DNA of 64,000 nt from Arthrobacter sp. MYb229 (GTDB lineage Bacteria > Actinomycetota > Actinomycetes > Actinomycetales > Micrococcaceae): the NCBI RefSeq assembly GCF_002975405.1, contig NZ_PCPS01000001.1:806001-870000 (forward strand). The letters run 5' to 3'. The stretch's first letter is position 1. The number at the start of each line of letters is the position of its first letter. Positions 32,306 to 35,452 of the stretch are shown here, in pieces. The notes under the pieces were generated by a model, which saw only the letters and a list, made by a program, of their open reading frames with translations, had not been told where the DNA came from and ran no database searches. Made by a program: the position numbers and the translations under genes.

Positions 32306-34465
32306 CTAGCCCGGCTGGTCGGTGAGGATGACCAATTGAGCGGTGGCACGGGTCATCGCAATGTACCTGTGCACTGCTCCGGAAATTCCCGGGTCGAAAT
32401 TTTCCGGACGGTTCAGGACCACCAGGTCAAATTCAAGTCCCTTCGCTTGTTCCGGGCTCAACGCGCGGATCCGGTCCGTGTCGTTAAAGCTCGGGTCGCC
32501 AATGACCACGCCGACCCCGAGCGGATGTTCGTCTTGCCACTGGCGCAAAAGGTCCTGTTGCCGTTCAGGCCTGGCGTAAATGACCGCCGCACCATCGGTC
32601 CGGATCGAGGAGGGCACGTTTGCATCTGGCAGCTGCTCACGAATCGCCGATTCGGCTGCGTCCATGATCTGTTCGGTGGTGCGGTAGTTCACGCTTAGCG
32701 AGGCAACACGGCAACGGGAAATGCCCGCGTGCGCCAGACGCTGTTCCCATGTTTCGGTAAACCCGCCAGCGGCTTGGGCTCGGTCGCCGACGATCGTCAG
32801 GCTCCCGGAAGGGCAGCGCCGCAGCACCATGGCCCACTGCGCTTCGGTGAGATCCTGCGCCTCGTCGATGATGATATGCGCGAAAGGCCCAGCCAAGGCG
32901 TCGGGGGACGGGTCGGCTTCGGTGCGCTGGCGAATCAAGGTGTCTTGAAGGTCCGCATGGCGCAACTGAGAGGAGAGATCTTCCATATCGTCTGCGGCAG
33001 AAATCAGATCATCGATAACCTGGCTCATCAGGTCCCGTTCGGCGACCAGCCGGGCCTCGCGTCGACGCGCCGCTGCCTCAAGCTCCGGATCGCCCACCAG
33101 AAAACGCGCGGCATCCAGCAGCGGCCCGTCTTCGACGGTGAATGCGCTCGGGTCCTTGCGGAACAAGAGTTCGGATTGCTCATTGGTGAGCCACGGTGCG
33201 CTGTAGCGCAGCAGCGCCGGAATGGAGTACAGCGCGCTCAGCAGTTTTGCCGGACCCAATAGCGGCCAGTGCGCTTCGAAGGCTTGTGCCAACTGAACGT
33301 TCTGGGCCAGTTCGCTGCGGACTTGCTTCTCGGGCGCGCAGCCTTCGGGAAGCTGTTCGAGCAGGATTTCTTCGAGCGCCTCTCGAATCTGCAGCCGGGA
33401 CTCGTTGTGGTTGGTGCCCGGCTCGACCGCCGCGAAGGCATGCTCCCAGTGCCGCACCGTCAACCGCAGATCGGCCCACTGGGTCTCGACGAGCAGGTCT
33501 TGGGCTGGCGGTTGCTCGAATACGCTCACCGCCCGGCGCAGGGCAGCCAGCATGGCTCCCGAGGTCTTCAGCGTCGCTACCTCGCTGGAGGCCTCCGGTT
33601 GCGCCGCGCGAATTTCGGGGACCATTGCCTGCAAGGTGGAAATGAGCACATCTTCCTCGCCCAGGTTTGGCAGGATATCCGAGACATAGGCGGTGTAGGC
33701 ATTGTGCGGGCCGAGCACCAGCACGCGACCGCCACGGCCTTGCAGCTGCGCGTCGGCATGCAATAGGTAGGCGGCGCGGTGCAGCGCAACGACGGTCTTG
33801 CCGGTTCCGGGTCCGCCGTCCACCACTAGTGCTCCCTTGGCAGCGGAACGGATGATGGCGTCCTGATCCGCCTGGATGGTTGAGAGCACATCCTGCATTT
33901 TTCCAATCCGGTTGGCACCGAGAGAGGCCAGGAATGCGGAATGTTCGTCCAAGGAGGGGCTCGCGGTGAGCTGCGCCAGGTCGAAGACCTCATCCCAGAA
34001 GTCGATAATGGCCCCTTGGCGCCAACGATAGCGCCGCCTGCTGGAGAGATTCATCGGATGAGCGTGCGTTGCAGCGAAGAATGGTTCGGCGGCCGGCGCA
34101 CGCCAGTCCACCAGCAATTGCGCGGAGTTTTCATCGGAGAGTCCGGCTCTTCCCACGTAAGTGCGCCGTCCGGTGCTTGCCTCAACCATGAACCCCAAGC
34201 ATGCCTCTGGGCCTAAGCGTTCGAGCGCGTGCAGCCTGCGGGCTAGCTGGTGCAAGTCAACATCGCGATCCAGGGACTGCTGCAGGTTTCCGGCCCTGTC
34301 TTGACCGCGCAAGGCGATGCGCTGAGCCGCTTCCTGACGCTGCGCATCCACGCGCTGAGCGATGCGGCGAAGCTGATGCTGATCTTCAAAAATTTGCTCG
34401 ATTATTTGCTGGTTCTCCATAGGCTCGGATAGGCGGAAATAGCCGTGAATCGGATCGGTGCGCAT
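32306..34465 (-). CDS. helR: HelR-type RNA polymerase recycling ATPase (HelD family), rifamycin-response protein
   Basis: This 719-residue UvrD-like superfamily 1 helicase relative has Walker A GGPGTGKTVV at about residues 217-226, IIDEAQDLTEAQW as Walker B, and the C-terminal motifs SVNYRTTEQIMDAA and QAKGLEFDLVVLN. The N-terminal coiled coil (FEDQHQLRRIAQRVDAQRQEA) is the part that in HelD/HelR enters RNA polymerase. Known HelR proteins displace rifamycins from RNA polymerase. The assignment is supported by the palindrome at 34526-34556, which matches the rifamycin-associated element found upstream of such genes. ATG 34465 has GGAG at 8 bases; ATG 34471 would leave only 2 bases. Confidence 0.88.
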   Translation of the reverse strand: MRTDPIHGYFRLSEPMENQQIIEQIFEDQHQLRRIAQRVDAQRQEAAQRIALRGQDRAGNLQQSLDRDVDLHQLARRLHALERLGPEACLGFMVEASTGRRTYVGRAGLSDENSAQLLVDWRAPAAEPFFAATHAHPMNLSSRRRYRWRQGAIIDFWDEVFDLAQLTASPSLDEHSAFLASLGANRIGKMQDVLSTIQADQDAIIRSAAKGALVVDGGPGTGKTVVALHRAAYLLHADAQLQGRGGRVLVLGPHNAYTAYVSDILPNLGEEDVLISTLQAMVPEIRAAQPEASSEVATLKTSGAMLAALRRAVSVFEQPPAQDLLVETQWADLRLTVRHWEHAFAAVEPGTNHNESRLQIREALEEILLEQLPEGCAPEKQVRSELAQNVQLAQAFEAHWPLLGPAKLLSALYSIPALLRYSAPWLTNEQSELLFRKDPSAFTVEDGPLLDAARFLVGDPELEAAARRREARLVAERDLMSQVIDDLISAADDMEDLSSQLRHADLQDTLIRQRTEADPSPDALAGPFAHIIIDEAQDLTEAQWAMVLRRCPSGSLTIVGDRAQAAGGFTETWEQRLAHAGISRCRVASLSVNYRTTEQIMDAAESAIREQLPDANVPSSIRTDGAAVIYARPERQQDLLRQWQDEHPLGVGVVIGDPSFNDTDRIRALSPEQAKGLEFDLVVLNRPENFDPGISGAVHRYIAMTRATAQLVILTDQPG

Positions 34466-34525
34466 AATCATTGCTCCGGTCTTTTGCTGCGAAAGCGGTG
34501 GGGGACAAGTACCTATTGTGAGCCT

Positions 34526-34556
34526 TGCAGGGGGTCTTGCGGCAAGACCCCCTGCA
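34526..34556. promoter_or_regulatory. Rifamycin-associated element (RAE)-like palindrome upstream of helR
   Basis: A perfect 31-nt odd palindrome (15-base arms around base 34541) with the core GGTCTTGCGGCAAGACC, close to the 19-bp RAE consensus from actinobacterial rifamycin-response genes. It lies 61 bases upstream of the helR start, a promoter-proximal position. Confidence 0.85.
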
Positions 34557-34802
34557 GGCTATATTCTGAAAATGTAGGGACAATTGATGTTCCACTTTCA
34601 CTGGGCATTCCGGCCCTGGCTCAACCTGCTTTCGATGCTCCGCCTCTTGTTTCTCCGAACGGCTAGCTCGCCTTGCTCGCAAATTTGGGGGAAACGCATA
34701 TTTTCGTAATTGACCTATTGGTTGTTTCTCTAATCCTTGATGTTTATCGCAAAATTTGATTAGCTGGGAGTCCTATCCAGATGCCAAGGGCGGAAGCGGC
34801 CG

Positions 34803-35224: not shown

Positions 35225-35452
35225 GCATACGACGTTGATCCGGATATCGCCGGGGAGTCCTTGGAAGAACCCTCGGGATGACTCTTTTGCTCCCGAATTA
35301 GTAGAACCAAGCGGGACCAGCCCGTCACAGCTGATGAGAAGCGGTTCGCCACTTGTGTGCGCAAGCATCACGGTGGCGGATAAGCGGGGTGGTACCGCGG
35401 CCAAGTGCCGTCCTCGTAGGCAAGATTTTCGACCCTACGCTTGAAGGATGGC
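35225..35452 (+). promoter_or_regulatory. Ile-specific translational T-box leader of ileS
   Basis: The leader senses uncharged tRNA-Ile. The short Stem I is visible as CCGG/CCGG (35240-35243 and 35250-35253) closing a loop with the Ile specifier ATC at 35246-35248. The T-box GGGTGGTACCGCGG ends at 35400. Downstream, GCCGTCCT (35407-35414) can pair with AGGATGGC (35445-35452), enclosing a CGTAGG/CCTACG hairpin (35415-35439). That helix buries the Shine-Dalgarno AGGA, so control is at translation initiation, as known for actinobacterial ileS T-boxes with an ultrashort Stem I. No terminator with a T run is present. The RNA start near 35225 is a guess from a weak TAGACT box. Confidence 0.9.

Follow-up and report, generated by a model that had tools for sequence, protein, structure and literature searches.

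A perfect 31-nt palindrome before a helR gene of Arthrobacter sp. MYb229 is, as judged from its sequence, a rifamycin-associated element (RAE) that very probably controls this gene, and it would form the centre of a ~75-bp module in which two mirror-image promoters have overlapping -35 boxes inside the palindrome. All coordinates given without a locus name refer to the window, the whole 64,000-nt stretch analysed (contig NZ_PCPS01000001.1, positions 806,001 to 870,000).

The palindrome and the helR gene

34526..34556, no strand: perfect 31-nt palindrome, 15-bp arms plus one central base (direct reading; longest of the window, unmatched in 20 shuffles)
34532..34550, no strand: RAE 19-mer core GGGTCTTGCGGCAAGACCC (unique in the genome; alignment of 144 non-redundant modules)
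32306..34471, minus strand: helR (NCBIfam NF041254 motor_HelR; Mycobacterium smegmatis HelD in PDB, E=4e-89)

The palindrome reads TGCAGGGGGTCTTGC G GCAAGACCCCCTGCA and is centred at 34541, exactly as an earlier note on this DNA had described it. Its arm of 15 bases is the window maximum, followed by a runner-up of 11, and the maximum over 20 shuffled versions of the window was 10. The RAE-like element which the note placed inside it was recovered as well: the 17-mer GGTCTTGCGGCAAGACC was found as given, and the 19-mer at the core of the palindrome is the sole match in the 4.0-Mb genome to the loose RAE pattern GGNNCTTGCNGCAAGNNCC, with 0 matches in the reversed control. This 19-mer is an RAE-type inverted repeat that could be aligned with the 144 other modules, it lies upstream of a rifamycin-resistance gene (the 31-nt palindrome 55 bp and the 19-mer 60 bp before helR, whose start is at 34471), and by sequence it overlaps the -35 of the downstream promoter, as TTGCCG is located inside the palindrome and CACAAT 19 bp further on.

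The gene downstream, reported as HelD-like, proved to be a bona fide HelR, with a score of 931 bits where the model's cut-off is 750. HelR protects RNA polymerase by freeing the enzyme from rifamycins. The window protein resembles HelR/class II HelD in this score and in its similarity to M. smegmatis HelD over nearly the full length, whereas it differs in having only 71% identity to the nearest congener found and ~50% to other HelR proteins. A Shine-Dalgarno GGAG is situated 2 nt from the first ATG (34471) and 8 nt from the second (34465), and the second is probably the start codon, judging by this sequence.

A HelR orthologue (at least 54% identity) was detected in 14 of 18 genomes of the genus, and in all 14 the module was directly upstream of it (12 exact, two with one core base changed); the four genomes that had no module match were all without a HelR orthologue. 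The source genome also has a second HelD paralogue (G000:C19:2234-4090) that is 34% identical to HelR, and such a paralogue (~34% identity) is present in 18/18 genomes of the genus. No RAE was found upstream of it in the six congener copies whose upstream DNA was inspected, which, together with the 14 module-bearing HelR orthologues, ties the RAE specifically to helR. A second HelD paralogue lacking an RAE is consistent with a housekeeping HelD.

The window copy shares with other actinobacterial RAEs, which stand before helR, rox, arr, rph or rgt, the 19-bp core, the position before helR and the downstream gene set, and differs from them in its unusually long perfect arms. The remark that the palindrome extends beyond the usual 19 bases thus holds for this genome, but not as a conserved extension. 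When the relatives' RAEs were aligned, as the note had suggested, the uninterrupted arms of the 11 congeners measured were only 5-10 bp, and pairing past the 19-mer in the 144 modules was close to the expectation from base composition, except that the third pair modestly exceeded it; long arms are therefore peculiar to the window genome among the congeners compared. In two congeners (L273 and L274), one outer RAE arm has GGG replaced by CCC, with the core, the spacers and both -10 boxes intact; these variants represent useful natural material for asking what the outer arms do.

Close to this locus, a T-box leader precedes ileS (35226-35418; RF00230, 44.7 bits, E 6e-9). It was missed by the default Rfam scan because its score is below the gathering score of 93, and actinobacterial ileS T-boxes may score low in general.

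A mirror-symmetric module around the RAE

Palindromes were gathered by the core pattern alone from the named genomes, the family (Micrococcaceae) and the phylum, which gave matches in 65 of 245 family genomes (reversed control in 10) and in 38 of 396 phylum genomes. Loci near a HelR-like gene were oriented by the gene and aligned without gaps to build a profile. Clear conservation was found far beyond the 19-mer, in the gene-direction order CCACTYTCAANNTATAGCGCAC, RAE, TGCCGCANAATCG. A sense -10 element (CANAAT) occupies +21 to +26 from the palindrome centre and an antisense one (TANNNT) occupies -21 to -26 on the other strand, so that the two are mirror images about the centre, each 19 bp from a TTGCNG within the palindrome. 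The corresponding parts in the window are as follows.

34540..34545, minus strand: predicted sense (helR) -35 TTGCCG, inside the palindrome (alignment position; review on M. smegmatis helD promoter 2)
34515..34520, minus strand: predicted sense -10 CACAAT, 19 bp from the -35 (NANNNT in the gene-linked set below)
34508, minus strand: predicted helR transcription start, about +/-2 (from the -10 position)
34537..34542, plus strand: predicted antisense -35 TTGCGG, 3-bp overlap with the sense -35 (palindrome symmetry; alignment)
34562-34567, plus strand: predicted antisense -10 TATTCT at 19 bp (TANNNT in the gene-linked set below)
34560-34565, plus strand: alternative antisense -10 TATATT at 17 bp, overlapping TATTCT
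34568..34574, plus strand: antisense discriminator/start region GAAAATG, consensus GAAARTGG (information content, 59 non-redundant helR-linked modules)
near 34574, plus strand: predicted antisense transcription start (discriminator/start-region conservation)
34577..34593, plus strand: weak hairpin GGGACA-ATTGA-TGTTCC at the site of the relatives' antisense terminator

The symmetry was also examined in 109 RAEs picked solely by the presence of helR, rox, arr, rph or rgt within 500 bp downstream and oriented by the gene alone, a set that is free of selection on the flanks. The sense -10 (NANNNT) was present in 109/109 and the antisense -10 (TANNNT) in 107/109, in both cases exactly 19 bp from TTGCNG, and the RAE therefore has the predicted form of a mirror-symmetric divergent promoter pair. 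The first base distinguishes the two sides: among the 144 modules it is C in 86% of sense -10 elements and T in 99% at the equivalent antisense position. A 17-bp antisense reading (TATANN) is retained as an overlapping alternative only, the 19-bp spacing being the invariant one in the alignment. A scan for sigma-70 promoters with 16-18-bp spacers detected none at the window locus, where both predicted spacers are 19 bp.

Flank-only scores of 214 palindrome loci exceeded 10 in 148 and were borderline in about ten, and most of the others fell below -14 and had no module, which argues against accepting a bare 19-mer palindrome as adequate proof of an RAE. The full ~75-bp module is a sharper search pattern, since flank scores drop most chance palindromes and leave few borderline. 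Clustering of 141 downstream proteins gave 58 helR, 56 rox, eight arr, eight rph and three rgt products; cluster representatives were confirmed with curated models, the Rgt representative matching at 508 bits, below the cut-off of 800. In Actinoplanes aureus, a module (L033:116-134) precedes an MFS drug-efflux gene (229-1794), outside the five usual rifamycin genes, and this gene may extend the regulon. On the sense side, the predicted mRNA leader starts with a small conserved hairpin 20-50 bp after the -10, near the ribosome-binding site (L220, L224 and others), with the sequence GGCCGAAGCC in Streptomyces and CCTGTCGAAACGGCAGG in Xanthomonadaceae.

Outside Actinobacteria, the search pattern required both -10 boxes and just CTTGCNGCAAG in the middle. 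It matched 25 of 149 genomes in the family of Stenotrophomonas maltophilia, with 0 matches in the reversed control, and 12 of 398 genomes Pseudomonadota-wide, several of them probably by chance. Wherever comparison identified the downstream protein in Xanthomonadaceae, it was Arr or Rox, and several loci were left without identification. In this family, S. maltophilia included, modules that have the two mirrored -10 boxes as well as a strong antisense terminator were observed before arr or rox (L214-L241; e.g., L111:1939-1957 and L220). The earlier note had mentioned that the organism is not known to make rifamycin; the RAE is indeed present here, but this is not unusual, since modules occur in numerous genera of Actinobacteria as well as in Xanthomonadaceae, and an RAE in rifamycin non-producers is the rule.

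The antisense start is predicted ~24 bp upstream of the RAE. At this start, a stem followed by a T-run was found in 45 of the 141 modules from Actinobacteria and in 23 of the 27 from Pseudomonadota (mostly Xanthomonadaceae), whereas the sense side had none (0/141 and 0/27, respectively). When 5' halves were exchanged among sequences, the stem score fell from 7.69 to 5.26 +/- 0.24 in Actinobacteria and, more weakly, from 13.94 to 12.68 +/- 0.33 in Pseudomonadota, so the two sides of the stem covary. In many relatives, the antisense promoter would thus start directly on an intrinsic terminator, and its transcript would be a dead-ended RNA of ~30 nt. Such a terminator is absent in most congeners, and none is claimed for the window genome because the corresponding hairpin is weak (folding z-score -0.26). 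Taken as sequence evidence, these data support the RAE, HelR, mirror-symmetric -10 elements with the weaker one on the sense side and, for many relatives, a terminator of the antisense transcript.

How the RAE may sense rifamycin

Rifampicin induction of helR via an RAE in related bacteria has been published (PMC10719064), and the mechanism by which RAEs sense rifamycins has been called unsolved (PMC12802891, PMC10719064). In M. smegmatis, the RAE lies over the -35 of promoter 2 of helD; two sense promoters have been reported there, and an antisense one is not mentioned (PMC10719064). Overlap of the RAE with the -35 of the nearer sense promoter is common to the window and this gene (MSMEG_2174), and the published P1 start, ~20 bp upstream of the RAE, is near the position of the predicted antisense start. 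In Bacillus subtilis, rifampicin turns on helD by arresting the antisense promoter that otherwise silences it, and moving both promoters into clashing proximity abolished induction (PMC12802891). The helD/pps dual-promoter alarm of that species resembles the window in combining a HelD-type gene with an antisense promoter that opposes it in the same regulatory region; however, its promoters are convergent and non-overlapping, whereas the predicted pair in the window is divergent and has 3 bp of the -35 boxes in common. The exact B. subtilis mechanism cannot apply to the RAE, because overlap of the RAE promoters corresponds to the clashing arrangement that abolished induction. No description of the mirror-image -10 pair, the antisense terminators or the occurrence in Xanthomonadaceae was found in the accessible RAE literature, founding papers aside, and a search on antisense or divergent promoters with rifampicin returned nothing relevant.

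The favoured explanation, to which we give an even chance, is a two-promoter direction switch, possibly with a factor that binds the palindrome. The helR-facing promoter would have a weak -10 (CACAAT), and the opposite one would combine a better -10 (TATATTCT) with an A-rich start region. Simultaneous occupation of both promoters by RNA polymerase would be impossible. In the absence of drug, the antisense promoter would dominate, producing RNA that goes nowhere and keeping helR low. Rifamycin would tip the shared element towards the sense promoter, after which HelR would build up and strip the drug. We infer activity of the two promoters, a restraining effect of the antisense one on helR and a reversal of this balance by rifamycin. 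The antisense promoter is probably functional, and its participation in the rifamycin switch is nearly an even bet, tilting slightly to the negative. Plain competition between polymerases is rejected as the full mechanism, since it predicts repression and not induction: polymerase that rifamycin has stalled on the antisense promoter would cover the shared -35 and block helR. An extra step would therefore be required, either clearing of the stalled polymerase or a palindrome-binding factor. The outer GGG...CCC ends of the palindrome, located outside the -35 boxes, are better explained by protein binding, and occurrence in different phyla with no companion gene points to polymerase alone. In its strictest form, the RAE would be a self-contained direction switch with RNA polymerase itself as the rifamycin sensor and a strong antisense promoter (often making a ~30-nt terminator RNA) holding the sense one off. 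This version appears rather unlikely; as it would need RNA polymerase only, it could function in both Actinobacteria and Xanthomonadaceae.

Somewhat less than evenly probable is the explanation that an undiscovered dimeric regulator has its operator in the palindrome, where it would bind GGGnCTTGCnGCAAGnCCC and activate or release transcription on sensing rifamycin or rifamycin-stalled polymerase, the antisense promoter being a by-product of the symmetry. Dyad symmetry with conserved outer GGG/CCC is more than sigma requires, the spacers are constant at 19 bp, a length typical of regulator-dependent promoters, and an unknown factor has been named in two papers. However, conservation of the better antisense -10 and start region, together with antisense terminators, is unexpected for a by-product, and in two congeners CCC replaces GGG on one side. 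The regulator would also have to occur in both Actinobacteria and Xanthomonadaceae, and no regulator gene appears to travel with the module: the 10 neighbours at seven Xanthomonadaceae loci sampled included no recurrent gene family and a single MmyB-like regulator.

An ordinary RAE, with a single rifamycin-inducible promoter in the sense direction, another sense promoter upstream and an unused antisense -10, would agree with the accessible published accounts, which give sense promoters only. It is improbable, because TANNNT at one exact position in nearly all gene-linked RAEs, as well as antisense terminators of varied sequence, would be unexpected if this -10 were unused. Least probable by far is an RNA hairpin or terminator, acting for example on read-through transcripts. 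The palindrome has a terminator-like score on the plus strand, but it is flanked by divergently oriented genes, and both predicted starts are downstream of it, so that it would be missing from the RNA of either promoter. Moreover, the R4/R16 pair is complementary in just 51 of the 144 modules, and the arms past the 19-mer lack covariation except for the one modest excess.

The mirror-image promoter pair supplies a concrete and testable anatomy for rifamycin sensing by RAEs, which it could help to explain. Its occurrence upstream of arr and rox in Xanthomonadaceae suggests that the same control of inducible rifamycin resistance exists outside Actinobacteria, and that other hosts are usable for its study.
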